Positions 20,502-33,590 are shown, counted from the stretch's first letter. The stretch: DNA of 64,000 nt from Gemmatimonas sp. (GCA_011390885.1 JAABRO010000054.1:62001-126000), one strand, 5' to 3'. The notes: a model not told the origin generated them from the sequence alone. Translations and numbers: made by a program.

Positions 20502-21344
20502 ATGCCGGAGCTGCCGGAAACGGAGACGATCGCACGCGACCTCGAGGCCCTGATCGGAGGCGCGCAGATCGTCGGCGCGCGCGTGATGCGCCCGGACGTG
20601 CTGCGCGAGATCGAGCCTGAGCGTCTCGGCGCGTCGATTGCTGGTACGCGCGTGCGGTGCGTGTGGCGGCGCGCCAAGCTGATCGTGCTCGACCTCGCGC
20701 GCGACGAAGAGCGCGTGAGCACGCACCTGGTCGTGCAGCCGCGCTTCACCGGCGCGCTGCTCGTGGACGACGGCACGCTCGACGCCGAGCTGCGTGAGTA
20801 CCTGTGTGTCACGCTCCGGCTCGCCGACGGACGCGCCCTGCACTACCGCGACGTGCGGCGGCTGGGCACGGTGGCGCTCATGACACCGGCGCGCTTTGCC
20901 GAGTATGCCGGAGCGCTCGGACTCGAGCCGCTCGACGCCACCAGCACGCCGGAGGCACTGCGCGCCGTGTTCGGCAGCAGCGTGCGTCCGATCAAGGCCG
21001 CGCTCATGGACCAGGCGCTGCTCGCCGGCGTGGGCAACATCTACGCGACCGAAGCCTGCTGGGTCGCAGGCATCGACCCGTCGCGCGCGGCGAACTCGCT
21101 CACGCCGCACGAGTGGACCGTGCTGCACACCGCGCTCGTGCGCCTGCTGCGCGACAGCATCGCGGCGCGTGGCACCAGCTTTCGCGACTACCGCGATGCG
21201 ACGGGCGCGCGAGGTGGCTTCGTGTCGCAGCTGCGCGCGTACGGCCGCGCAGGACTGCCCTGTGCCCGCTGTGGACGACGGCTCGTGGGTACCGACGCCA
21301 TCGACGGGCGGATGACGGTGTTCTGCCCCTGGTGCCAGCGATAG
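20502..21344 (+). CDS. mutM: Formamidopyrimidine-DNA glycosylase
   Basis: This 280-residue base-excision enzyme removes 8-oxoguanine and formamidopyrimidines and nicks the abasic site. The N-terminus after Met, PELPETE, holds the catalytic Pro and Glu. Lys in RRAKLIVLDL near residue 62 is the conserved hairpin lysine. DQALLAGVGNIYATEACW near 168 is the helix-two-turn-helix region typical of Fpg rather than Nei. The C-terminus has a four-cysteine zinc finger (CARC and CPWC, residues about 254-279). It converges on the SDR gene. Confidence 0.94.
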   Translation: MPELPETETIARDLEALIGGAQIVGARVMRPDVLREIEPERLGASIAGTRVRCVWRRAKLIVLDLARDEERVSTHLVVQPRFTGALLVDDGTLDAELREYLCVTLRLADGRALHYRDVRRLGTVALMTPARFAEYAGALGLEPLDATSTPEALRAVFGSSVRPIKAALMDQALLAGVGNIYATEACWVAGIDPSRAANSLTPHEWTVLHTALVRLLRDSIAARGTSFRDYRDATGARGGFVSQLRAYGRAGLPCARCGRRLVGTDAIDGRMTVFCPWCQR

Positions 21345-21375
21345 CGGCCGCACGTCGCCGCCGTATGCTGCGCGT

Positions 21376-22278
21376 TCAGAGTGGCCCGTCGCGAAACGTC
21401 CACTGCGGTGTGTAGCCGAGCCGCTCGCGTGCGGGACCGATGTCGAGCACGCTGGGCCGTGCCAGCTGGCGCACCACGTACCGGGTGAGCGGCGGATCGT
21501 CGTTCCGTCGGAGCAGCGTCCACAGGGCCTCGCTGCCGAGCGCGACCGCGTGTGCGATGGGCTCGGGCACGAAGCGCAGCTGCACCGGTACCTCGTAGCG
21601 CTCGAACAGGGTGCGCAGCAGATCGTCCACGCGCGGCGCGTCGGCGTCGGCCACGTCGAGCACGAGCGGTGACCGCGCGTCCGGCGCGCCGCGCAGCAGC
21701 TCGAGGGCGCGCACGATCGCCTGCACGAGGTTGTCGATGTGCGTGACGGAGATCGGCGAACGCCCATCGCCGGGCACGAAGAGCCGGCCGCCTCGCACCC
21801 GCGATCGCACGCGCGGCCAGAGTGTGGTGTCGCCGGGACCGTAGATCACGTGCGGCCGCAGCACGACGGCCGGGTGCCCACTGTCGGTGACGATCGCCTC
21901 ACCGCGCTGCTTGCTCGCCGCGTATGGCGGCAGGTCGCGACCGTCGTACACACTGGCCGTGCTCACGTGCACGATCGGCACGCCCGCCTGCAGACTGGCG
22001 AGCAGATGGCGCGTGCCGCGCTCGTTCACGGCAGCGAACTGCTCGGCCGCCCCCCACTGCCCCACGTGCGCCGCGCAGTGCACGACGGCATCCACGTGGC
22101 GCAGGTCGATCGCCCCGTGCGCGAGGTCCCAGGACGCATAACGCGGCGGCCCGCTGTTCAGCGCCGCAGCTGGTCGACGCCCGAAGGACCAGACCTCGTG
22201 TCCGAGTACCTCGAGCGCTCGTGCGGTGCGCCCACCCACGAAGCCGCTCGCACCGGTCACGGCCACGCGCATCGTCAC
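21376..22278 (-). CDS. Extended SDR (NAD-dependent epimerase/dehydratase; OleD-like)
   Basis: This encodes 300 residues with the Rossmann motif GASGFVG near residues 9-15 and the catalytic YAASK near 120. It belongs to the extended short-chain dehydrogenases that include 3-beta-hydroxysteroid dehydrogenases and OleD, the enzyme that reduces beta-keto acids in bacterial olefin synthesis. It is the last gene of a five-gene operon. GTG 22278 overlaps the ligase stop (GTGA), while ATG 22272 two codons later is an equally good start. The OleD-like role is inferred from the ligase and KAS III neighbours. Confidence 0.8.
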   Translation of the reverse strand: MTMRVAVTGASGFVGGRTARALEVLGHEVWSFGRRPAAALNSGPPRYASWDLAHGAIDLRHVDAVVHCAAHVGQWGAAEQFAAVNERGTRHLLASLQAGVPIVHVSTASVYDGRDLPPYAASKQRGEAIVTDSGHPAVVLRPHVIYGPGDTTLWPRVRSRVRGGRLFVPGDGRSPISVTHIDNLVQAIVRALELLRGAPDARSPLVLDVADADAPRVDDLLRTLFERYEVPVQLRFVPEPIAHAVALGSEALWTLLRRNDDPPLTRYVVRQLARPSVLDIGPARERLGYTPQWTFRDGPL

Positions 22279-23897
22279 CGGCCCGGCTCGGCGTCCAGTT
22301 GCGCGATCGGCTGCGCGATGCGATTCTCGCGCGTCGGCTCCCCCGGCGCCCGCAGCCCCAACGCGCGCCGCAGCGCCGCCTTGTCCACCTTGTGGGAGCG
22401 CCCCGACTCCGGCAGCGCATGCAGTCGGATCTCGTCGGGCAACGCCGAACGGTCGAGTCGATTGGCGCCGGTGCGCACTGCACGCGCCACCTGCTCACGC
22501 AGCGCGTACCCATCGGCACCGGGCTCGGGTTCGATCACGAGGACCACGCGTTCGTCGGCCCGCGACTCGTCGAAGTCGCCCACCAGCGCGGCACGGCGCA
22601 CGCCCGGAATGCGCTCCACCAGCGGCTCGTACAGCTCCGGATAGATGTTGTGGTCGCCCCGGATGATCATGTCCTTGAGCCGCCCGAGCAGCACGATGCG
22701 ATCGCCGTCGAGTCGTGCGAGGTCGCCGGTGGCGTGCTCCGACAGCTCCGGCCGACCGGCGTATCCGCGACAGAGCGATGCGCCCGACACCAGCAGCTGG
22801 CCACGCGCATCGACGCGGACGGTGACGCCACGCACCGGCCGGCCCACCAGGTCTCCATGGCCGTCGTAGGCGAGCTTCTCGCGCAGCGACACGCGCGCGA
22901 TCGGCAGCAGTTCCGTGGCCCCGTACACGCACCATGCGTCGCACGCGGTCGGCAGCAGCGGTGCCAGTCGCGCGAGAAACGGCGCGCGTACCGGCGCGGC
23001 ACCGATCATGAGCGAGCGCAGATTCGGCGGCATGGCGCGTCCCCCCGCCTCGCAGGCCTCCACCAGCAGCCGACAGTCGCGCGTGGTGAAGAACGCGTGC
23101 GTGACACCGTGCGCGTCGAGCGCCGCCAGCGCGTCGACCGCACGAAAGGCGAGCGGGCGCGGCACGAGGGCGAGCGCGCCCGTGCACAGCGCCGGCAGGA
23201 GCAGGTGCAGGTCCTTCGCGTACACCACATCGGCCAGCGCCGGTGCGAGTTCGCGCTCCACCGTCTCGAGAATGGACCCGAGCGAGCCGCGCGTGTGCAC
23301 GACGGCCTTCGGGTCGTCCGTGGTGCCGGAGGTGCAGACGATGAACGCCTCATCACGCGGCGAGGCCGTGCCCTGCGCCTCGCACGAGAGCGTGCCGGAC
23401 GCGCGACGCGCGAGCAGTGACGCGAGCGTGATCGTGGCCGGCAGCCCGGGCAGCCAGGGGCCCACGCGCACGACACGTGCACCCGCCACGCCGCCGAGCG
23501 GTGCGAAGCGAACGCCGCGCGACCGCAGCAGGCGCGCCACCACGCCGTCGGTGCGCACCAGCAGCATCGACTCGGCGAACACCCACGCGGGTTCGAGCTG
23601 CCGCATGCGCGTGGCGAACAGCACATCGGAGGTGCCGGGGTCCTGCGGCACCAGCACACCACCCAGCTCGTGCACCGCCAGCACGAGGCACACCGCATCG
23701 ATGCCGGGGCGCACGGAGAAGACCACGCGGTCGCCTCGCCGGAAGCCGAAGGCGTGCAGTCCGCGCATCAGCGCGCGCACCCGCTGCACGAGGGCGACAC
23801 GTGTGATCTGTCGACCGCTTCGCGCCCCGCTCACCTCCCGGAGCGCCATCCCCCCCGGCACCTCGTCCGCCCGCGCGGTGATGCGTTCAAGGAGCAT
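22275..23897 (-). CDS. AMP-dependent acyl ligase (OleC-like)
   Basis: This is a 540-residue adenylate-forming enzyme. The ATP-binding loop reads CTSGTTDDPKAVVHT near residue 189, where the usual glycine-rich TGxPKG is TDDPKA. The YGATELLP motif near 325, the hinge GRLKDMIIRGDHN near 402 and the catalytic Lys in SHKVDKAAL near 507 are present. YGATE-xLP is, as I recall it, characteristic of OleC beta-lactone synthetases. ATG 23897 overlaps the P450 stop by 11 nt, and the longer upstream frame is P450 coding in another phase. It should activate a carboxylic acid, possibly the beta-hydroxy acid made by the SDR. A plain fatty acyl-AMP/CoA ligase is the alternative. Confidence 0.8.
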   Translation of the reverse strand: MLLERITARADEVPGGMALREVSGARSGRQITRVALVQRVRALMRGLHAFGFRRGDRVVFSVRPGIDAVCLVLAVHELGGVLVPQDPGTSDVLFATRMRQLEPAWVFAESMLLVRTDGVVARLLRSRGVRFAPLGGVAGARVVRVGPWLPGLPATITLASLLARRASGTLSCEAQGTASPRDEAFIVCTSGTTDDPKAVVHTRGSLGSILETVERELAPALADVVYAKDLHLLLPALCTGALALVPRPLAFRAVDALAALDAHGVTHAFFTTRDCRLLVEACEAGGRAMPPNLRSLMIGAAPVRAPFLARLAPLLPTACDAWCVYGATELLPIARVSLREKLAYDGHGDLVGRPVRGVTVRVDARGQLLVSGASLCRGYAGRPELSEHATGDLARLDGDRIVLLGRLKDMIIRGDHNIYPELYEPLVERIPGVRRAALVGDFDESRADERVVLVIEPEPGADGYALREQVARAVRTGANRLDRSALPDEIRLHALPESGRSHKVDKAALRRALGLRAPGEPTRENRIAQPIAQLDAEPGR

Positions 23898-25176
23898 CGG
23901 TGGCCACCACCCGCAGTTCACGCCACGCCGGCAGCAGCACGCCGCGTGACGCGCGGCGCCGCGTGATCCGAAGCGCCGGGAACGTGCCCGCGATGTGGGC
24001 GACGGCCGCATGCAGCGCGCGCTGTGCGAGCGTGAAGCCCAGGCAGAAGTGCGGACCGGCACCGTACCACAGATAGCGCGCCCGTGGATCGTGCACGCGC
24101 GTCACATCGTAGCGATGCGGATCGGGAAAGAGCTGCGGGTCGCGCGCGAGATTGGCGGTGAGCACGAACACCCGCTCGCCAGCCCGCACCGCCGTTCCTG
24201 CGAGCCTCGTGTCCGCGGCGGCGATGCGCAGCGTGAGCGGCACCGGGCACGTGTAGCGCAGTCCCTCGTCGACCGCCGCGCCCACAAGCGAGGCGTCGCG
24301 ATGCACGAGCGCGAGCTGCCGCGAATCCACCAGCAGCGCGACCACGCGCGGCAGCGTCACGCCGAGCGTGAGCGCCCCCGCGATGAAGAAGATGGAGAGA
24401 ATGCCGCGCGTCTCTTCGGCGGTGCACCCCATCGTGCGCAGCCGTGCAACCAGCGAGCCGGGTGGCAGCGTGTCGCTCGCGAAGGCGCGCTCGGCATAGG
24501 CGAGCAGGCGGTCGAGGTCGGCCTGCACGGCGCCGAGCCGACGCTCCGGGAGGCGCGAGAGCTGCAGGGCAGATGCGATGCGTTCTCCGAGCGCGTGCAC
24601 CGCGAGCGCGTCGGTGTCGTCAGCCCCGTCGCGCGCACCGGGCACAGGCGGCCAGGGCTCCACCCCCATGAGCGTGAGCGTCAGTCGCCCGGAGAGCGTG
24701 CGCGCGGTGCGCGCGAGGTCCACCGTGCGCCCCTGAGCGAGCGCCGCGAAGGCCCGGTCGAGTGGACTGCGCGACGCGTCGAGCCACGCGTCGGCCTGTT
24801 CGGCAGAGGCCAGCGGACCCAGTCGCCGACGGAGCGCGCGGTGCGGATCCCCGTCCATGTTGGCGAGCGCGGACGGGCCAAACGCCTGCGTCATGACCTC
24901 GGCGATGCCGCCCCGCCCCTGCTTGCGAAAGAGATCGTCTCGGCAGAGCACGTCGTGCGCGAGCAGCGCGTCGTTCACCACCACGCCCAGTCCTGGCACG
25001 CGGAGCACCGCGCCGCTTCGGCCGACGAGGCGCACCGCCGGCCACAGCAGCGGGTGCGCGGCCAGGTTGAGACGCGCCTCCTGCCACGCCGCGCGACGCG
25101 TGTCCGCACCCTGCGGGAGCGCGGGCGCGCGGCGCCCTGCGTCGGGGCGCGCCGGCAGTTCGAGCGGCGCCGTCAT
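23887..25176 (-). CDS. Cytochrome P450 with atypical I-helix
   Basis: This is a 429-residue soluble bacterial-type P450. The heme-thiolate loop YGAGPHFCLG places Cys near residue 377, with Tyr instead of the usual Phe. The K-helix ExxR is EGLR near 303. The I-helix segment is FIAGALTLG near 260-268, where families normally have AGxDT: the acidic residue of the acid-alcohol pair is Leu, while the Thr is kept. This suggests altered oxygen activation or peroxide use. The ATG overlaps the GT2 stop (ATGA) and the ligase starts inside its last codons. No ferredoxin or reductase is encoded nearby. Confidence 0.88.
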   Translation of the reverse strand: MTAPLELPARPDAGRRAPALPQGADTRRAAWQEARLNLAAHPLLWPAVRLVGRSGAVLRVPGLGVVVNDALLAHDVLCRDDLFRKQGRGGIAEVMTQAFGPSALANMDGDPHRALRRRLGPLASAEQADAWLDASRSPLDRAFAALAQGRTVDLARTARTLSGRLTLTLMGVEPWPPVPGARDGADDTDALAVHALGERIASALQLSRLPERRLGAVQADLDRLLAYAERAFASDTLPPGSLVARLRTMGCTAEETRGILSIFFIAGALTLGVTLPRVVALLVDSRQLALVHRDASLVGAAVDEGLRYTCPVPLTLRIAAADTRLAGTAVRAGERVFVLTANLARDPQLFPDPHRYDVTRVHDPRARYLWYGAGPHFCLGFTLAQRALHAAVAHIAGTFPALRITRRRASRGVLLPAWRELRVVATDAP

Positions 25177-25973
25177 CGCACGTCCACGACGGCGGGGCGG
25201 TATCCGTGATTGCGGTACCAGCGCAGCACATTCACGAAGCCGTACGCCCGCACGCGCCGCACCGAGTTGTACACCACGATGTCACGGCGCACCTCGGCGC
25301 GATCGGTGAGCGTGCGCACGCGCTCCGACAGCTCGCGGTCCTCGTGCGCCGTCTCGATCGCCGTGCGCGGAAACCCGCCCGCCGCCACGTACAACGTGGC
25401 CGCAATCGCGAGGTTGTTGCCGGCGGCCATGAAGTATGGATACCGGAACTGCGGGCCGCGTCGCACAAACCGTCCGTAGCGCTCGGCCAGCGCGATCATG
25501 ACCGGCAGCACGAGACGTTCGCGCAGTGACAGCCCCTCGTCTTCACGCGGCACGATGCGGCCGGCCACGAACTCAAGACCGTCCGCCACGAGCGCGTCCT
25601 TGAGCCGGGCCACCCACTCCCGGTGTGGCAGGCAGTCGGCATCGGTGCGGGCGATCCACAGGGCGCCCCGCGCGATGGCCGCGCGAAACCCCGTGTCGGA
25701 GGCGGCCCCGGTACCCTTTTTCAGCTCGCGCACGAGCTCCACCGGAAAGGGGGCACGCGCGGCGAACTCGCGGACGACATGCGCTGACTCGTCAGTGCTG
25801 GCGTTGTCCACCACGACGAGCGTGAACGCCGTGTCGGTCTGCTCGGCGAGCGCGCGCAGCGTGGCCGGCAGGCCGCGCGCCTCGTTGTAGCACGGCACCA
25901 CGACGAAGAAGGTGCGCGCATCGGCGCGGCGCACTTCGGCGCTGCGCGCAGCGATCGGCGCCGGCATGGTCAC
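25173..25973 (-). CDS. Glycosyltransferase family 2
   Basis: This is a 266-residue GT-A enzyme. VVVPCYNEARGL near residue 23, VVDNASTDES near 55 and the metal-binding DAD in ARTDADC near 109 are present. ETAHEDRELSERV near 207 supplies the probable catalytic Asp region. There are no transmembrane segments, so it is probably cytoplasmic or peripheral. GTG 25973 overlaps the KAS III stop, with ATG 25967 as alternative. Its place between the KAS III and P450 genes suggests it glycosylates the operon's lipid product or a carrier. Acceptor and donor are unknown. Confidence 0.85.
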   Translation of the reverse strand: MTMPAPIAARSAEVRRADARTFFVVVPCYNEARGLPATLRALAEQTDTAFTLVVVDNASTDESAHVVREFAARAPFPVELVRELKKGTGAASDTGFRAAIARGALWIARTDADCLPHREWVARLKDALVADGLEFVAGRIVPREDEGLSLRERLVLPVMIALAERYGRFVRRGPQFRYPYFMAAGNNLAIAATLYVAAGGFPRTAIETAHEDRELSERVRTLTDRAEVRRDIVVYNSVRRVRAYGFVNVLRWYRNHGYRPAVVDVR

Positions 25974-26989
25974 GTCTCGATCACGAGCACACCCACGCTG
26001 ATGCCGCTGGCCATGCCGAGCCAGAGCACCCGTTCGCCCGCGCGTACCGTGCCGTCGGACACGGCGAGCGCGTGCGCCACCGGCAGCGTGGCCGAGGCCA
26101 TGTTGCCGAGGTGCGTGACGGTGCCGCGCACCTTGTCGGCCGGAATGCCGGTGGCGGCGAGCAGTTCGGCATGGTACGCGAGCCCGACCTGATGCACGAA
26201 GATGTGGTCGAAGTCGTCGAAGCCATACCCGCCCGCGCGCAGCATGTCGTGCAGGATGCCGGGGCCGTTGGCCACGAACGCGTCCTTGAGCGCCGGCCCG
26301 TCACCGTGCAGGTACGCGTATTCGTCGCCGCGCGGGTGCATGGAGCCGCCATACGGAATGGTGGCCAGCGGCCAGTGCGCACTGCGCGCGGCGAACTGGC
26401 GGAAGACGATGCCACGCGTACCGTCGGCGGGCGTGAGCACCACGGCCGCCGCGGCGTCGCCCATGGTCCAGCTCGGGAAGAAGCGACGGAACTCGTCGGC
26501 GTCCTTCACGTGCCAGCGCACGGCGCGTGAGCAGATCTCCCCCGTGACCACGAGCGCGTGGCGCGCGGCCCCGGACTGAATGAGCGACTCGGCCACCTGC
26601 AGCCCGTTGAGGAACGAGTTGCAGGCATTCTTCACGTCGAGCACCTGGCAGTTGGTGCCGAGCTTGTGCTGCACGATGTGCGACGTGGCCGGCTCGATCA
26701 GGTCCTGGCTGGCCGCGGCGAAGATGAGCAGGTCCACGTCGTGCACGGTGAGGCCGGCCTCCTCGAGCGCGCGCCGAGCCGCTCGCACGGCCAGGTCGGA
26801 GCACTGCTCATGCTCGGCCGCCACGCGGCGCTCGCGAATGCCGGTGCGCGCCTCGATGATGCCCGGGCGCACACGGATGTCCGGGCTTTCGGCGGCGATG
26901 CGCTGCTCGACGTCCCGTGACGTACGCACGCCATTCGGCAGGTAGGCCGCGACGGACGCAATCTGGACGTGGGCGTGCGGCAGGATCAT
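25970..26989 (-). CDS. Beta-ketoacyl synthase III family (thiolase fold; OleA-like)
   Basis: This is a 339-residue condensing enzyme. The nucleophilic Cys is in VKNACNSFLNG near residue 121. The His of FVHQVG lies near 263 and the Asn of THLGNMASATLPVA near 293, giving the Cys-His-Asn triad of FabH and OleA. Length is closer to OleA (about 340) than to compact FabH, and no acyl carrier gene is nearby, which suits an acyl-CoA user. ATG 26989 is chosen because the family N-terminus (IASVAAYLPNG) begins shortly after it; the frame continues upstream without similarity. It is the first gene of the operon; I could not find a convincing promoter in the 205-bp divergent region. Confidence 0.85.
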   Translation of the reverse strand: MILPHAHVQIASVAAYLPNGVRTSRDVEQRIAAESPDIRVRPGIIEARTGIRERRVAAEHEQCSDLAVRAARRALEEAGLTVHDVDLLIFAAASQDLIEPATSHIVQHKLGTNCQVLDVKNACNSFLNGLQVAESLIQSGAARHALVVTGEICSRAVRWHVKDADEFRRFFPSWTMGDAAAAVVLTPADGTRGIVFRQFAARSAHWPLATIPYGGSMHPRGDEYAYLHGDGPALKDAFVANGPGILHDMLRAGGYGFDDFDHIFVHQVGLAYHAELLAATGIPADKVRGTVTHLGNMASATLPVAHALAVSDGTVRAGERVLWLGMASGISVGVLVIET

Positions 26990-27159
26990 GGAGCGAGCGG
27001 GGTCGATGACGGGGAAGACGATGGCGGCTGAGGTCGGATACGCCCGACACGCGCCGCACCGCGAATGATCTACCCCGACCCGTACGATGCGGCCATCGTC
27101 CGGGTGACGTAGAAGCTGACGTAGCGATCGCCCCGATTCGAGGGGCGGCCGGCGCGCTC

Positions 27160-27188
27160 TTGCCCGCCGAGGGCGCGCGCCGTACTTT
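27160..27188 (+). promoter_or_regulatory. Promoter of the UvrC/Cho-like gene (leaderless type)
   Basis: TTGCCC (27160-27165) and TACTTT (27183-27188) are separated by exactly 17 nt, and the ATG follows 6 nt later. The predicted transcription start falls at or next to the A of ATG. Confidence 0.75.
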
Positions 27189-27194
27189 CGGCCT

Positions 27195-28409
27195 ATGTTC
27201 GGCTCCCTGACTCGAAGCGTCTCCGGCACGACGCCCGCGCTCGCGCAGCTCTCGTTCCTCGATGCCCCGCCGCGCATCGACGCGTCGCCGCTGCGCGATG
27301 TCGTTCGCCGATCCGCCCGCAACGTCCCGGGCGTGTACCGCATGCTGGGCGCGCGCGGTGACGTGCTGTACGTGGGCAAGTCGCGCCAGCTGCGCACGCG
27401 ACTGCTGTCGTACTTCCGGCTGCCGTGGCCGGAGCATCGCCATGCGCGCATGCTGCGGGAGACGGCACACATCGAGTGGGAGGAATCACCCAGCGAGTTC
27501 GCCGCCCTGCTCCGCGAGACGCGCCTCATTCGTGCGCACCTGCCCGCGTACAACCGGCGAGGAGCGCGGCCGCTCGACAAGTGGTGGGTGATCGTGGTGC
27601 CCCGCGACAGCGCGCCTCGGCTCCGGGTGCAGCGCGCGAGCGCGGTCGGTGACCGTCGCGCGTCCGTGGCCGAGTCGGTGATCGGACCCTTCGCGCATCG
27701 CGCGCCGCTGCTCTCGGCAGTCCGGGTGCTCAACGATGCGCTCGGGCTGCGCGACTGCTCCGACCGCGTGCCCATGGTGCTGCGCGATGCGGGCGACTTC
27801 TTCGCCGACGACCCGCGCTACGCGCGCACCCCCGCCTGCCACCGGTACGAGACGCGGCGCTGCCTGGGCCCCTGCATCGCCGCGTGCACGCACGCGGAGT
27901 ACCGCGCGCAGGTACAGCGCGCCCGCTCGTACCTCGACGGGGAGTCCGACGCGCCGCGTGCCGAGCTGGCGAAGGAGATGGCGATGGCCAGCGCGCAGCT
28001 GCTCTACGAGCGGGCCGGCTGGCTGCGTGACCGGCTCACGGCGCTCGAGACGCTCGAGGCGCAGCTGCTGCGCGTGCGTGAGGCGCTGCTGCGGCCGTCA
28101 TTCGCCTATCGGCTGCCGAGCCTGTACGGCGCCGACCGCGTGTACCTCGTGCGCGACGGACGCGTGGTGAGCGAATCGTGCGTTGACGACCCCGACGGCA
28201 TGGACCAGCTGCTCGCCCGCGAAGCAGCCCCCGCGTCCAGCGCCAGGGCCCTCACGGTCGAGGCGCTGGAGGAACTCACCCTGCTCGAGCACTGGTTCCG
28301 CACGCGCGCCGAGGAGCAGTCGCGCACGGCACCGACGGTGCGGGAGCTGCTCGGGCGCGCCGCGAATCCCGCCGTCTCGAGCGGCGCAGTCTGCAGCGGC
28401 GCAGTCTAG
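27195..28409 (+). CDS. UvrC-like GIY-YIG nuclease lacking the C-terminal half (Cho-like)
   Basis: This encodes 404 residues. The GIY-YIG endonuclease domain (about 45-125) reads GVYRML, then VLYVGKS, with the conserved Arg and Glu following. A UvrC-type cysteine cluster (Cys in CHRYETRRCLGPC and a following Cys, near residues 215-235) and a UVR-like helical pair (about 255-300) are present. The RNase H-like 5' nuclease and helix-hairpin-helix domains of full UvrC (about 600 residues) are absent, as in Cho. It should make only the 3' incision in nucleotide excision repair. Its TAG stop overlaps the stop of the opposing phosphatase gene. Confidence 0.87.
   Translation: MFGSLTRSVSGTTPALAQLSFLDAPPRIDASPLRDVVRRSARNVPGVYRMLGARGDVLYVGKSRQLRTRLLSYFRLPWPEHRHARMLRETAHIEWEESPSEFAALLRETRLIRAHLPAYNRRGARPLDKWWVIVVPRDSAPRLRVQRASAVGDRRASVAESVIGPFAHRAPLLSAVRVLNDALGLRDCSDRVPMVLRDAGDFFADDPRYARTPACHRYETRRCLGPCIAACTHAEYRAQVQRARSYLDGESDAPRAELAKEMAMASAQLLYERAGWLRDRLTALETLEAQLLRVREALLRPSFAYRLPSLYGADRVYLVRDGRVVSESCVDDPDGMDQLLAREAAPASSARALTVEALEELTLLEHWFRTRAEEQSRTAPTVRELLGRAANPAVSSGAVCSGAV
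28380..28409 (+). repeat. 15-bp tandem duplication at the gene end
   Basis: AGCGGCGCAGTCTGC at 28380-28394 is followed by a second copy at 28395-28407 that breaks at the stop. It encodes SGAVCSGAV at the C-terminus. The final CTAG carries both convergent stop codons. Confidence 0.8.
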
Positions 28410-28921
28410 AGCGGCACGATCTCCACGTGCGCGTGTCCGCGGGAGATGTGCAGCTGCGCCACGCTCGGGCTGAGGTCGAACCGAGCGGGCCCTGCGGCGC
28501 CCGGGTTCACCACGAGCGTGTCGCCGATGCGCGTGATCATCGGCTTGTGCGTGTGGCCGTACACGATCACCTCCGCGTGCGGATAGGCGGCCACGAGCGA
28601 CTCGGGCGTGGGCGATCCGAGCTCGTGCCCGTGCGTGACCACCACCTTGATGCCCGCGATCACGACATCGAGCCGCTCGACGAGGTCCGGGCGGCCCGGT
28701 GCATCGGTGTTGCCGTACACGGCGCGCACGGGCGCGATCGCGCGCAACTCGGTGAGCACGTCACCGCCGTCGGCCGTGTGCCCGACGTCCCCCGCGTGCA
28801 GGATCTCCGCCACGCCGGCCAGTGCCGTGAACACGGAGGGACGCACGAGGCCGTGCGTGTCGGAGATGAGGCCGATGGCGATCGATTCGCCGCCGCGGCC
28901 GTCGAGAGGGACAGGCGTCAT
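28406..28921 (-). CDS. YfcE/MJ0936-type metallophosphoesterase
   Basis: This is a 171-residue calcineurin-like phosphoesterase. The metal-binding set is complete: SDTHG near residue 21, GDVGH near 44, GNTD near 72, THGH near 97 and GHTHKP near 126. This matches small phosphodiesterases with broad activity on model substrates; the natural substrate is unknown. ATG 28921 overlaps the ubiX stop (ATGA), so it is the last gene of the menaquinone operon. Longer upstream reading belongs to ubiX in another phase. A role in that pathway is not implied by sequence. Confidence 0.88.
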   Translation of the reverse strand: MTPVPLDGRGGESIAIGLISDTHGLVRPSVFTALAGVAEILHAGDVGHTADGGDVLTELRAIAPVRAVYGNTDAPGRPDLVERLDVVIAGIKVVVTHGHELGSPTPESLVAAYPHAEVIVYGHTHKPMITRIGDTLVVNPGAAGPARFDLSPSVAQLHISRGHAHVEIVPL

Positions 28922-29520
28922 GGTTCGTCTCCACCCCAGCGCTTGCCGATGCGATGGTCCACGTCGAGCTGGTCCAGGATGCGGGCCACGACGAAGTCCA
29001 CGAGCTCGGCAATCGACTGCGGTTGATGATAGAAGCCGGGCGCGGCCGGCAGCACGATCGCGCCGGCCCGCGTGACCGCGGCCATGTTCTCGAGGTGCAC
29101 GAGCGACAGCGGCGTCTCCCGTGGCACGAGCAGGAGCTTGCGGCGCTCCTTGAGGGCGACATCGGCGGCGCGCTCCACGAGCGATCGCGAGGTGCCGTGC
29201 GCGATCGCACTGACCGTGCCCATGCTGCAGGGGCACACCACCATCCCGGCACTGCGCGCCGAGCCCGAGGCCGGCAGCGCGCCACGATCGCCGTCATCGA
29301 AGACGCGTACGTGCGCATCGAAGCGCTCCGGCCCCACCCACACGCGCAGCGCCTCGAGGTTCTCGATCCCCGACTCGGTCTGCAGCAGGCGCCAGCCGTG
29401 CGAACTCACGATCAGCCAGGTGGGCACGCCCTCCTGCGCGAGCACTTCGAGCAGGCGCACCGCGTACGGGGCACCGCTCGCGCCCGTGATCGCGAGCACC
29501 ACCGGCAGCCGCGCCGTCAT
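28918..29520 (-). CDS. ubiX: Flavin prenyltransferase
   Basis: This 200-residue enzyme makes prenylated FMN, the cofactor of UbiD decarboxylases. ITGASGAPYAVRLLE near residue 11, VCPCSMGTVSAIAHG near 95, LLVPRETPLS near 128 and PAAPGFYHQP near 157 are the conserved FMN and prenyl-phosphate sites. ATG 29520 overlaps the ubiA stop. The UbiD partner lies two genes upstream in the same operon. Confidence 0.95.
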   Translation of the reverse strand: MTARLPVVLAITGASGAPYAVRLLEVLAQEGVPTWLIVSSHGWRLLQTESGIENLEALRVWVGPERFDAHVRVFDDGDRGALPASGSARSAGMVVCPCSMGTVSAIAHGTSRSLVERAADVALKERRKLLLVPRETPLSLVHLENMAAVTRAGAIVLPAAPGFYHQPQSIAELVDFVVARILDQLDVDHRIGKRWGGDEP

Positions 29521-30500
29521 GCCGCGACCACCGCCGCACCGCGGCCGAGCACCGTGGCGCCCAGCACGCAGCCGAAGAACACCATGGAAATGATGCCGTT
29601 CATGGTGAAGAAGGCGGCATCGAGCTTGCTGAGGTCGTCGGCCTGCACGAGGCGGTGCTCCCACACGAGCAGCGCCGCGGCCAGCGCCACACCAACCCAC
29701 AGCAGCGCACCGGCCACGGCCGTGTCGGGACGGGCCGCCAGGCCGAGCGGATCGGACCACACCACCGCCGCGAGGCACAGCACGGTGAGCACGTGCAGCG
29801 CACGTGCCACCAGGATGGCACGCGGCACACCGATCGCCGACGGGAGCGAATGCAGCCCGTTGCGCCGGTCGAACTCCGCATCCTGCAGCGCATACAGAAT
29901 GTCGAAGCCGCCCGTCCAGCTCATCACCGCGAGGGACAGCGCGCACAGCACCCACCACGGCGAACTCCACGCACCGGTGACGGCCAGATAGCCGCCGACG
30001 GGCGCGATCCCGAGCCCGAGCCCGAGCCAGAGGTGCGACCAGCGCGTGAAGCGCTTGGTGTAGCTGTAGCCGAGCACCCAGAGCAGGGCCACCGGCGACA
30101 GCGCGAAGCACAGCGGATTGAGCCGCCACGCCGCGAACACGAACAGCGCGCTCATGACCGTGACCGCCGCGGTGGCCTGCGCCACCGTAAGCGCGCCACG
30201 CGGGATTTCGCGCATGGCCGTGCGCGGATTCTTCGCGTCCACGTCGCGGTCCACGATGCGATTGAAGCCCATGCCGGCGAAGCGCGCAGCGGTGAAGGCC
30301 ACCAGCACCCATCCCACCTCGGCGAGCGTGGGCATGCGCACCGCACTCGCGAAACACACGCCCACGAGCGCGAACGGCAGTGCGAACACGGTGTGCGGCA
30401 GCTTCACGAAGTTGGCGAGCCGCACGAGCAGCGACGTACCGTCAAAGGTCTGTCCGTCGCGCGCGCCCGGCGGCAGCGGCATGCCGGTGTGACCGTTCAC
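29517..30500 (-). CDS. ubiA: UbiA-family aromatic prenyltransferase
   Basis: This 327-residue inner-membrane enzyme has about eight hydrophobic segments. The two Asp-rich motifs are NRIVDRDVD near residue 76 and DILYALQDAEFD near 195, which bind Mg-polyprenyl diphosphate. It should attach the isoprenoid tail to an aromatic carboxylate. With UbiD and UbiX beside it, and menaquinone rather than ubiquinone likely, the substrate may be 1,4-dihydroxy-6-naphthoate as in the futalosine pathway (MqnP role); 4-hydroxybenzoate is the alternative. GTG 30500 overlaps the ubiD stop, with ATG 30482 as a shorter start. Confidence 0.9.
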   Translation of the reverse strand: MNGHTGMPLPPGARDGQTFDGTSLLVRLANFVKLPHTVFALPFALVGVCFASAVRMPTLAEVGWVLVAFTAARFAGMGFNRIVDRDVDAKNPRTAMREIPRGALTVAQATAAVTVMSALFVFAAWRLNPLCFALSPVALLWVLGYSYTKRFTRWSHLWLGLGLGIAPVGGYLAVTGAWSSPWWVLCALSLAVMSWTGGFDILYALQDAEFDRRNGLHSLPSAIGVPRAILVARALHVLTVLCLAAVVWSDPLGLAARPDTAVAGALLWVGVALAAALLVWEHRLVQADDLSKLDAAFFTMNGIISMVFFGCVLGATVLGRGAAVVAA

Positions 30501-31999
30501 CGCGCCCCCATCACCGGGGGCGGCGTCGGCAGCCCGAGCTTGCCCCACATCGCGTCCACGCTGGCCTTCGTGGTGGCGTCCATCGCGATCATCTTCGGCC
30601 AGGCGCGGTGCGCGCCCTCCTCGGGCCACTTGCGCGTGGCATCAATGCCCATCTTCGACCCGTACGTGAAGGCGCGGCTCGCGTGATCGAGCACGTCCAC
30701 CGGTCCCATGGTGAAGCGCACATCGCGCTCGGGATCCATGTTGTTGAGCGCGGCCCACCACGCTTCAAGCGGGTTGCGCACGTTCACGTCACTGTCGAGC
30801 ACCACGAGCACCTTGGCGAGGGACATGAGCCCCTGCCCCCAGAGCGCGTGCATGACCTTGTCGGCGTGGCCGGGATACCGCTTGTCGATGCTCACGAAGA
30901 CGAGGTTGTGGAACCCGCCCTCGGCCGGCATGTGGTAGTCCACGATCTCCGGGCAGGTGAGCTTGAGCAGCGGCAGGAAGATGCGCTCGGTGGCATGCCC
31001 GAGATAGAAATCCTCCATGGGCGGCTTGCCCACGATCGTGGTGGCATACACGGCCTGCTTGCGCATCGTCACCGCGGTGACGTGCACGCGCGGGTACAGG
31101 TCGGCCTCGCTGTAGTAGCCGGTGTGGTCGCCGAACGGGCCTTCCATGACGAGCGCTTCGGCCGGATCGATGTACCCTTCGATCACGAGGTCGGCCTCGG
31201 CCGGCACCTCGAGGTCGCACGTCACGGCCTTGGCCAACTTGACGGGCGCGCGACGCAGGAAGCCGGCGAAGATGAACTCGTCGATCATCGGCGGCAGTGG
31301 CGCGCTGGCGCTGTACATGCTCGCCGGATCGGCGCCCACGGCGATGCACACCGGCATGGTCTCGCCACGCTCGGCCATCTGCCGCAGGTGCTCCGCCCCC
31401 GTCTTGTGACGCTGCCAGTGCATGGCCACGTCACGCTTGCCGAGCTGCTGCACGCGGTACATGCCCACGTTGCGGATGCCACGCGCCGGGTCCTTGGAGA
31501 TCACCATCGTGAGGGTGACGTAGGGACCGCCGTCCTCGGGCCAGCAGGTGAGCACGGGGATCTTGTCGAGGTCGATCTCGTCGCCCTTCCACACGATCTC
31601 CTGGCAGGCGGGCGTCCCGCCGCTCGTGCGCGGCGGGAACTTCGACACCTCGAACAGGCGCGGCAGCAGGCCGAGCTTGCCCATGAGGCCATCGGGCACC
31701 TTGAGGTCGAGCAGCTCCGTGATGCGCCCGCCCACGCGGTCGAGGTCGTCCACGCCGAGCGCAAGCGCCATGCGGCGCATGGATCCGAAGAGGTTGATGG
31801 CGACCGGCATCGACGCGCGGGTGCCGTCGCGCAGCACCGGATGCTCGAAGAGCAGCGCCGGCCCGCCGCCGGGCAACTTCATGGCGCGGTCGGCGATCTC
31901 GCACAGCTCGAGGTGCACCCGCACCGGGTGCGTGATGCGATGCAGTTCCCCCGCCTTCTCGATGGCGGTGATGAACTCGGACAGGCTATCGATGGACAC
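30497..31999 (-). CDS. ubiD: UbiD-family decarboxylase
   Basis: This is a 500-residue prFMN-dependent decarboxylase. GIRNVGMYRVQ near residue 180, the EGPFGDHTGYYS segment near 285 with its catalytic Glu region, and GKPPMEDFYLGHATERIF near 340 are family signatures. It removes the ring carboxylate after prenylation. GTG 31999 (VSIDSLSEFI) matches the usual family start; a TTG nine codons earlier is possible. It overlaps ubiA by 4 nt and lies 48 nt after ubiE. The ubiD-ubiA-ubiX order matches the late futalosine genes of Streptomyces, as I recall them. Confidence 0.93.
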   Translation of the reverse strand: MSIDSLSEFITAIEKAGELHRITHPVRVHLELCEIADRAMKLPGGGPALLFEHPVLRDGTRASMPVAINLFGSMRRMALALGVDDLDRVGGRITELLDLKVPDGLMGKLGLLPRLFEVSKFPPRTSGGTPACQEIVWKGDEIDLDKIPVLTCWPEDGGPYVTLTMVISKDPARGIRNVGMYRVQQLGKRDVAMHWQRHKTGAEHLRQMAERGETMPVCIAVGADPASMYSASAPLPPMIDEFIFAGFLRRAPVKLAKAVTCDLEVPAEADLVIEGYIDPAEALVMEGPFGDHTGYYSEADLYPRVHVTAVTMRKQAVYATTIVGKPPMEDFYLGHATERIFLPLLKLTCPEIVDYHMPAEGGFHNLVFVSIDKRYPGHADKVMHALWGQGLMSLAKVLVVLDSDVNVRNPLEAWWAALNNMDPERDVRFTMGPVDVLDHASRAFTYGSKMGIDATRKWPEEGAHRAWPKMIAMDATTKASVDAMWGKLGLPTPPPVMGAR

Positions 32000-32047
32000 G
32001 GCGACGAATGCAGGAGGGTCGGGCAAACGATCCCGACGAGGTCGGGC

Positions 32048-32839
32048 TCACGGGGCACGCCCCACATGGATGGCGGCGATCCCGAAGCTCACCCGCTGCC
32101 AGGTGATGTCGGTGAAGCCGGCGCCGCGCATGCGATCAGCGAGCGCCTGCTCCGTGGGGAAGTGCGCCACGCTCATGGGCAGGTACGTGTACGCGGAGCC
32201 GTGCCCGCTCACGAGACGCCCCACCGCCGGCAGCACGTGATGGAAGTACGCGTGGTAGCCGGCACGCACGAGGCGCGATGGCGGCGTGCTGAACTCGAGA
32301 ATCACGAATCGGGCCCCGGGCCGCAGGACGCGGCGCACCTCGCGCAGCCCCGCATCGAGGTCGGCCACGTTTCGGATGCCGAACGCGACGATCGCCCCGT
32401 CGAGCGCACCGTCGGCGAACGGCAGCGACAGCGCATCGGCGCCGACGGGCGCCAGGCGGTCGCGCGGCGCCTTGCCGCTGCCGTGCCGCAACATGGGCAC
32501 GGCGAAGTCGGCACCGATCACACGCCCGCTGAACCCCTGCTGCCGCACGAGCATGGCGCCCACGTCGAGCGTGCCGGCACAGAGATCGAGGAAGACGCCC
32601 CCGGGCCGCTCCGTCCACGCGAGCGCGCGCAGCGCCTTGCGCCGCCACGCCCGGTCGATGTTGAGGGAGAGCACATGATTGAGCAGGTCGTAGCGCGGCG
32701 CGATGTCGCTGAACATGCGCTGCACGTACGCGCGCTTCCCTTCACCCGCGGCGGCCGCGGCGGCATCCTGCACGGACGGCGCATCAGCGGCGGATCGAGG
32801 ACGCGCCTCGGGCGGACCGGCTGCAATCGGGGGTACCAT
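32048..32839 (-). CDS. ubiE: Demethylmenaquinone methyltransferase (UbiE/MenG)
   Basis: This is a 263-residue SAM-dependent C-methyltransferase. VQRMFSDIAPRYDLLNHVLS near residue 39 and the SAM-binding DLCAGTLDVG near 86 are typical of UbiE/MenG, as is AFGIRNVADLDAGL near 152. The first 30 residues are Ala/Pro-rich and probably disordered. ATG 32839 is preferred because upstream codons show no similarity. It should methylate the menaquinone precursor as the last step and heads the ubiE-ubiD-ubiA-ubiX operon. It diverges from the sigma factor gene. Confidence 0.92.
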   Translation of the reverse strand: MVPPIAAGPPEARPRSAADAPSVQDAAAAAAGEGKRAYVQRMFSDIAPRYDLLNHVLSLNIDRAWRRKALRALAWTERPGGVFLDLCAGTLDVGAMLVRQQGFSGRVIGADFAVPMLRHGSGKAPRDRLAPVGADALSLPFADGALDGAIVAFGIRNVADLDAGLREVRRVLRPGARFVILEFSTPPSRLVRAGYHAYFHHVLPAVGRLVSGHGSAYTYLPMSVAHFPTEQALADRMRGAGFTDITWQRVSFGIAAIHVGRAP

Positions 32840-32970
32840 CCCGAATACTCGCCGCCCGCGAGCGCCCGAGCAAGCGAGCGGGCGCCTGAACCGCATCGGT
32901 AGTGCGCGATGCCGCAGCGCCCTGTCCGGACAGTGACGACGCATGGCTGGTCTCGTGGGTGCACGGGGGC

Positions 32971-32976
32971 TAGCTT
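32971..32976 (+). promoter_or_regulatory. -10 element of the ECF sigma gene
   Basis: TAGCTT lies 11 nt before ATG 32988, predicting a leader of only about 5 nt. The -35 position (TGGTCT) is poor. Confidence 0.5.
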
Positions 32977-32987
32977 CCCGACGCCCG

Positions 32988-33590
32988 ATGCCTCCCACCG
33001 ACGACCTGGTCTCGCTACCGGACGCCGACGTCGTGCGCCTCGCTCAAGAGGGGCGCGAACGCGCGTTCCGTGAACTCGTACGCCGGTACGAGCGTCCGGT
33101 CTTCTCGCTCGTGTACCGCATGGTGCGCGACCGGGAGACCGCCGAGGACCTTGCGCAGGACGCCTTCATCAAGGTCCTGAACCACATCGATCGGTACAGC
33201 CCCGAGTTCAAGTTCTCGAGCTGGATCTTCAAGATCGCCAACAACGTGGCGATCGATCACCTGCGGCGCCGGCGCATCGATACCATCAGCATGGACGGCT
33301 CGCCCCACGCGGCGAGCGCCTCCGAGATCGAGGCCAGCACCTTCGACATCGCCGCCGAGCAGGAGGATGCGCTCGACGAGCTCGCGGCCAAGGAGCTCGG
33401 GAGCGCCATCGAAGTGGCCATCGGGAAGCTCCGTCCGGAATACCGCTCCTGCATCATGCTGCGGCACGTGGAGGGACGCTCCTACGAGGAGATCGCCTCC
33501 ACCCTCGACCTGCCGCTCGGCACCGTGAAGACCTACATCCACCGCGCCCGGCACGAACTGCGCCGCGCGCTCGAGGACCTCAGGACGTGA
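32988..33590 (+). CDS. ECF-type RNA polymerase sigma factor
   Basis: This is a 200-residue sigma-70 family protein. Region 2 (about 20-95) includes DLAQDAFIKVLNHIDRY and FSSWIFKIANNVAIDHLRRRR, and region 4 (about 135-195) has the helix-turn-helix RSYEEIASTLDLPLGTVKTY. No region 3 is present, as in ECF factors. ATG 32988 follows the TAGCTT hexamer; an in-frame ATG at 32943 would lie upstream of that promoter. The zinc-finger anti-sigma gene follows after about 100 nt. Confidence 0.93.
   Translation: MPPTDDLVSLPDADVVRLAQEGRERAFRELVRRYERPVFSLVYRMVRDRETAEDLAQDAFIKVLNHIDRYSPEFKFSSWIFKIANNVAIDHLRRRRIDTISMDGSPHAASASEIEASTFDIAAEQEDALDELAAKELGSAIEVAIGKLRPEYRSCIMLRHVEGRSYEEIASTLDLPLGTVKTYIHRARHELRRALEDLRT

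Follow-up and report, generated by a model that had tools for sequence, protein, structure and literature searches.

A compact five-gene cassette in Gemmatimonadota that resembles oleB-less OleACD clusters and carries a cytochrome P450 and a glycosyltransferase

What might be produced by an operon that combines relatives of OleA, OleC and OleD with a cytochrome P450 and a glycosyltransferase, and that comes without oleB? Here, we analyse such a cassette in a 64,000-nucleotide stretch of Gemmatimonas sp. DNA (the window), which belongs to a Gemmatimonadaceae MAG of 4.07 Mb in 62 contigs that is 95% complete. Translations place five genes on the minus strand, transcribed from 26989 to 21376 in the order KAS III, GT2, P450, acyl-AMP ligase and SDR, with successive overlaps of 4, 4, 11 and 4 nt; Pfam and NCBIfam agree on the domain of each gene. 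A sequence-only reading had described just such a unit of overlapping genes at 21376-26989, and the motifs that it named are present (NACNSFLNG in the KAS III, YGATELLP in the ligase). The locus is organised as follows.

25970..26989, minus strand: OleA-like KAS III (thiolase fold), 339 aa, with Cys123, His266, Asn296 and Glu99-Pro100
25173..25973, minus strand: GT2-family glycosyltransferase, 266 aa
23887..25176, minus strand: cytochrome P450, 429 aa, with heme Cys and ExxR, and I-helix AGALTLG without acidic residue
22275..23897, minus strand: acyl-AMP ligase with YGATELLP and A8 GRLKDMI, sister to the OleC/PRK09274 group
21376..22278, minus strand: NAD(P)-dependent SDR, 300 aa, with OleD (2-alkyl-3-oxoalkanoate reductase) as top curated match
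21345..27194, no strand assigned: interval that holds the entire cassette, bounded by fpg and the uvrC-like gene
20502-21344, plus strand: fpg, downstream neighbour of the cassette, convergent
27195-28409, plus strand: uvrC-like gene, upstream neighbour of the cassette, divergent

Beside the cassette, at 28918-32998 of the window, lies a block of ubiX, ubiA, ubiD and ubiE-like genes in an order that is kept in two congeners (G001 and G004) and that, going by gene names only, would serve quinone synthesis.

We consider it reasonably probable that the cassette is a self-contained, oleB-less OleACD-type unit for a lipid or natural product, in which head-to-head condensation, reduction, lactonisation, oxidation and glycosylation are combined. 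We infer the individual reactions, their order and substrates, and the lactone as follows. The OleA-like KAS III would join two acyl thioesters head to head into a 2-alkyl-3-keto acid, which the OleD-like SDR would reduce to a 3-hydroxy acid. The ligase would then adenylate the carboxyl group and probably close a beta-lactone, the P450 would oxidise an alkyl chain, and the GT2 would transfer a sugar onto a hydroxyl group. As there is no OleB, the product would not be decarboxylated to an olefin.

The five genes recur in unchanged order in G001 and G004 and in G019, a member of another genus, to whose copy the GT2 is the most similar cassette gene (72% identity). The cassette proteins are 57-83% identical to those of the two congeners, and dN values of 0.14-0.39 against dS values of 0.8-1.8 for the same comparison mean that the differences are mostly synonymous and that the cassette genes are under purifying selection. 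Conserved order, this level of identity and a dN well below dS rule out chance open reading frames. A ligase profile search found the cassette in 6 of 395 sampled Gemmatimonadota genomes, distributed among three genera of one family; two of the six copies are incomplete, with a contig end inside GT2 and ligase in G263 and G189. In G001 and G004 the cassette occupies the same place as in the window. In G003, a congener that lacks the cassette, only 63 bp separate fpg from the uvrC-like gene, an interval that contains nothing else, and fpg also adjoins the uvrC-like gene in G005, which belongs to another genus. This empty site in G003 indicates that gain or loss affected the whole cassette at once. 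Near the cassette of G019 there is none of the window's flanking genes, and the cassette was probably acquired horizontally. A binning error was rejected, as the cassette has the same flanks in each of three congener MAGs. Two local differences concern the surroundings of the cassette: a 467-aa open reading frame with no Pfam match is located between fpg and the cassette in G004 (L029:5671-7074), and a gene for a LuxR-family (GerE) regulator, a candidate regulator of the cassette that the window does not have, lies divergently 115 bp upstream in G019 (L030:14258-15439).

Beyond the phylum, a search of genome contigs that used just the ligase returned only two Gemmatimonadota MAGs and two Bradyrhizobium ligases, the latter without the other four genes. 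Tblastn against plasmids revealed relatives of KAS III, GT2 and ligase co-located on Streptomyces viridifaciens pKVP2; a Xanthomonas OleA fragment gave no match in a tblastn search against plasmids.

The first predicted step depends on the nature of the KAS III. In an alignment to PDB 3row, which we take to be Xanthomonas OleA, Glu99-Pro100 of the window's KAS III falls on OleA Glu117 and the proline that follows it. This glutamate is described as essential for condensation by X. campestris OleA, through a mechanism that, among the characterised proteins of the thiolase superfamily, only OleA homologues use (PMC7064751). In a 36-row alignment, all five cassette KAS III and all five OleA rows combine Glu-Pro with the cysteine of NAC and with the catalytic His and Asn. 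Phylogenetically, the cassette KAS III form a clade of their own, with canonical OleA and FabH as two further clades, and they are joined at 96/90 by actinobacterial OleA-like KAS III that also bear Glu-Pro. The earlier comparison with OleA thus stands as regards Glu-Pro and the catalytic triad, but not as regards family membership, given the position outside the canonical OleA clade and a score of 203 bits with PRK09258 (OleA) that is under the cut-off of 285. Judging from these residues, the KAS III most likely works like OleA, yet it is not a canonical member of the OleA family.

One of the actinobacterial KAS III (L041, Streptomyces sp. BHT-5-2) is encoded in an oleABCD-like operon that also holds a ligase grouping with OleC, an OleD-like SDR, and an OleB-like protein with an HDWGG elbow and 39-42% identity to Gemmatimonadota OleB. 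An interpretation of this locus as lipstatin-like was dropped because the gene after the KAS III is OleB-like. At this locus (L041:485-12575, plasmid p1), the operon is flanked by a divergent gene for a 2456-aa type I polyketide synthase. On two further Streptomyces plasmids (L137:7090-8981 and L139:7102-8978), the gene for an OleA-type Glu-Pro KAS III shares 4 nt with an SDR gene and no ligase is annotated in the vicinity, so that a shorter pathway is possible there.

The cassette SDR scores 167 bits with OleD (cut-off 580) and 109 bits with Shewanella OleD, as compared to 44 bits for the top non-OleD model, and it possesses the motifs YxxxK and LRPHxxxGPGD. True OleD sequences form a clade (99/98) that excludes the cassette SDRs in a tree whose deep branches around that clade are weak. 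While the top curated match and the motifs agree with the proposed identification as OleD, the score under the cut-off and the placement outside the OleD clade of this weakly resolved tree do not, and by sequence the SDR is best termed OleD-like.

Whether the pathway proceeds to a beta-lactone hinges on the ligase. Reference OleC, OleD and OleB sequences (six, from Gemmatimonadota) were taken from oleABCD operons found with NF006754, and the ligase tree comprised the six OleC references and 13 host adenylating enzymes, with three fragment rows left out. The cassette ligases constitute one clade (100/100) that is joined to OleC and other PRK09274 ligases (100/99) and is separate from acyl-CoA synthetases, with no grouping with the acyl-CoA ligases of the host, and from NRPS domains. 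YGATExLP is common to the cassette ligases and OleC and is relaxed in remoter cassette members. These features agree with the proposal of an OleC on the OleC/PRK09274 side of the tree. However, the cassette ligases branch outside the OleC and PRK09274 group, their A8 motif is GRLKDMIIRGDHNIYP, of the CoA-ligase type and unaltered, whereas that of OleC is GRKxHRV, and the window ligase reaches only 144 bits (cut-off 478) and 85 bits (cut-off 900) with the curated OleC models. The ligase of Streptomyces pKVP2 scores 88 bits with the fatty-acyl-CoA ligase model versus 80, slightly favouring the former. Closure of a beta-lactone by the ligase is plausible from its sequence, but it is not implied by family membership, and the separate clades and the canonical A8 motif make it less certain than the name OleC implies.

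A less likely alternative is that the product is not a beta-lactone but a glycosylated, hydroxylated 2-alkyl-3-hydroxy acid, i.e., a mycolate-like glycolipid or surfactant, for which the ligase would activate the carboxyl group so that it can be passed on to CoA, to a carrier protein or to a sugar. The canonical GRxKDMI of the ligase, a motif that is changed in OleC, and the branching outside OleC argue for this possibility, and hydroxy-acid surfactants are among the end products of pathways started by OleA (PMC7064751). However, the cassette encodes no carrier protein or acyltransferase, and YGATExLP is shared by the ligase and OleC. The predicted oxidised and/or glycosylated beta-lactone or lipid holds in outline and is the same as the prediction published for Actinoplanes, although the A8 motif and the clades leave the lactone itself less certain than first assumed.

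The apparent absence of OleB extends beyond the operon. A search of the 95% complete host genome with Gemmatimonadota OleB, for which the true OleB of G140 scores 390 bits, yielded as best match a serine hydrolase with the elbow GHSMGG (66 bits, about 30% identical). None of the 17 host alpha/beta hydrolases has an HDWGG elbow. A single hydrolase with an Asp elbow (GQDVGG, 30% identity) is located on another contig and scores best with enol-lactonase models. The carriers G004 and G019 gave weak matches only, and G001 has one HDFGG protein (33% identity) that is comparable to the haloalkane dehalogenase-like paralogues that accompany OleB in oleABCD genomes. These searches thus gave no sign of an oleB elsewhere in the host at 95% completeness, and supply of OleB from another part of the genome was rejected on that basis. 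True oleABCD operons, with an HDWGG elbow in OleB, do occur in the phylum at L096, L097, L098 and L099 (G140, G142, G240 and G254), and two other ole loci (L100 and L104) have no visible OleA; OleC-type ligases above the PRK09274 cut-off were found in 9 of 395 Gemmatimonadota genomes.

The cassette P450 is the sole P450 of the host at E below 1e-15. Directly before the I-helix Thr, four of the six cassette P450s have Leu, one has Ile and one has Asn, so that the acid is absent from all six while Thr is kept; four comparison P450s have Glu at this position (AGxETT). AlphaFold models built from four sequences did not reach a quality that would permit fold searches (mean pLDDT 62 for the P450 and 42 for the GT2). 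A reading that we regard as rather unlikely is that of an undescribed lipid class, a glycosylated derivative of a head-to-head condensed fatty acid, made with unusual acid-less P450 chemistry and a ligase reaction other than that of OleC. The P450 chemistry may then be a peroxide-driven oxidation or a loss of carbon that replaces OleB.

A related proposal, that the P450 takes the place of OleB or is an unusual oxidase or peroxygenase, e.g., for oxidative loss of the carboxyl group, with no hydroxylation of the chain, appears decidedly improbable. Besides the acid missing from all six proteins as compared to AGxETT, the location of the window's P450 gene, which is flanked by those of the KAS III side and the ligase and so matches the place of OleB in oleABCD, would suit this proposal, and the acid-alcohol pair is also altered in natural peroxygenases of the CYP152 type (PMC10750395). 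Yet the Thr of this pair is retained, and the Streptomyces P450 occupies another position in its operon.

Returning to the condensing enzyme, it is very unlikely that the KAS III acts in priming as FabH does and that the cassette is an ordinary fatty-acid operon. A score of 190 bits with FabH models lies near the 203 bits for OleA, but Glu-Pro is found in none of the FabH rows, including the two of the host, in which V, L, F, A or similar residues replace Glu. In the tree the KAS III is placed apart from FabH, and two true FabH genes are located elsewhere in the host genome. An ordinary FabH operon was rejected on these three grounds. Least probable of all is that the P450 is a mere glycosyltransferase activator like DesVIII or EryCII: its best NCBIfam match is the model for P450-derived glycosyltransferase activators (82 bits, cut-off 343) and its gene directly follows the glycosyltransferase gene, but none of the six cassette P450s has lost the heme Cys motif or ExxR, and P450-derived glycosyltransferase helpers have lost the Cys ligand and have GT1-type, not GT2, partners.

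The oleB-less OleACD-type unit remains our preferred reading. The OleA glutamate, the SDR scores, the 100/99 ligase branch and the weak OleB match speak for it, as do the joint occurrence of the five genes in Gemmatimonadota and Streptomyces and a published cluster of the same gene types. Against it count the scores of all three Ole-like proteins below curated cut-offs (203/285, 144/478 and 167/580 bits for KAS III, ligase and SDR), the placement of KAS III and ligase outside canonical OleA and OleC, the A8 loop and the score of the Streptomyces ligase, and the purified Actinoplanes OleA that condensed no acyl-CoA tested.

The cluster type and its predicted product are already published for Actinoplanes atraurantiacus, in which one region encodes OleA, a glycosyltransferase, OleC, a P450 and OleD in a genome without oleB, and for which an oxidised, glycosylated beta-lactone was proposed (mBio 2020, PMC7064751). 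Actinoplanes OleA was active in a p-nitrophenyl ester screen, and the purified enzyme, limited by precipitation, gave no condensation with any acyl-CoA that was tried (PMC7064751). In the literature found, no characterised product of this cluster type is reported. As far as checked, new findings are that the cluster type occurs in Gemmatimonadota, that an empty site points to gain or loss of the whole block, that KAS III and ligase form separate clades, that the A8 loop is canonical and that the P450 acid is absent. The cluster type had been proposed from one actinobacterial genome, and a compact block in a second phylum supports a real functional module. With only five genes, it lends itself well to expression and to identification of its product, for which the Gemmatimonadota KAS III offer alternatives to the Actinoplanes enzyme that precipitated.

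By gene content, the Actinoplanes cluster and the window cassette are alike: each unites these five types of gene in a single operon, without an oleB. They differ in order, which is OleA-like, GT2, P450, ligase, OleD-like in the window and OleA, GT, OleC, P450, OleD in Actinoplanes. The listed Actinoplanes order is that of pKVP2, and from gene content and order these clusters may belong to one family. On pKVP2 (CP090842.1 49282-54485), one operon of mostly overlapping genes encodes a ketoacyl-ACP synthase III, GT2, acyl-CoA ligase, P450 and NAD(P)-dependent oxidoreductase, i.e., the five types of the window with P450 and ligase swapped. Identities to the window proteins are 44% for KAS III, 48% for GT2, 42% for SDR, 33% for ligase and 31% for P450; the pKVP2 P450 is shorter (359 aa), and its genes are annotated generically only. 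With oleABCD of the Xanthomonas type, the cassette shares OleA-, OleC- and OleD-like proteins, the OleA glutamate and YGATExLP, whereas it lacks OleB, contains GT2 and P450, and has KAS III and ligase in separate clades. Among the beta-lactones that Ole clusters without oleB produce are drug leads, for example lipstatin. The lipstatin (lst) and nocardiolactone clusters likewise encode OleA-, OleC- and OleD-like proteins without OleB and give beta-lactones (PMC7064751); compared by description, lipstatin relies on a heterodimeric KAS III pair, LstA/LstB, whereas the cassette has one KAS III together with a GT2 and a P450.
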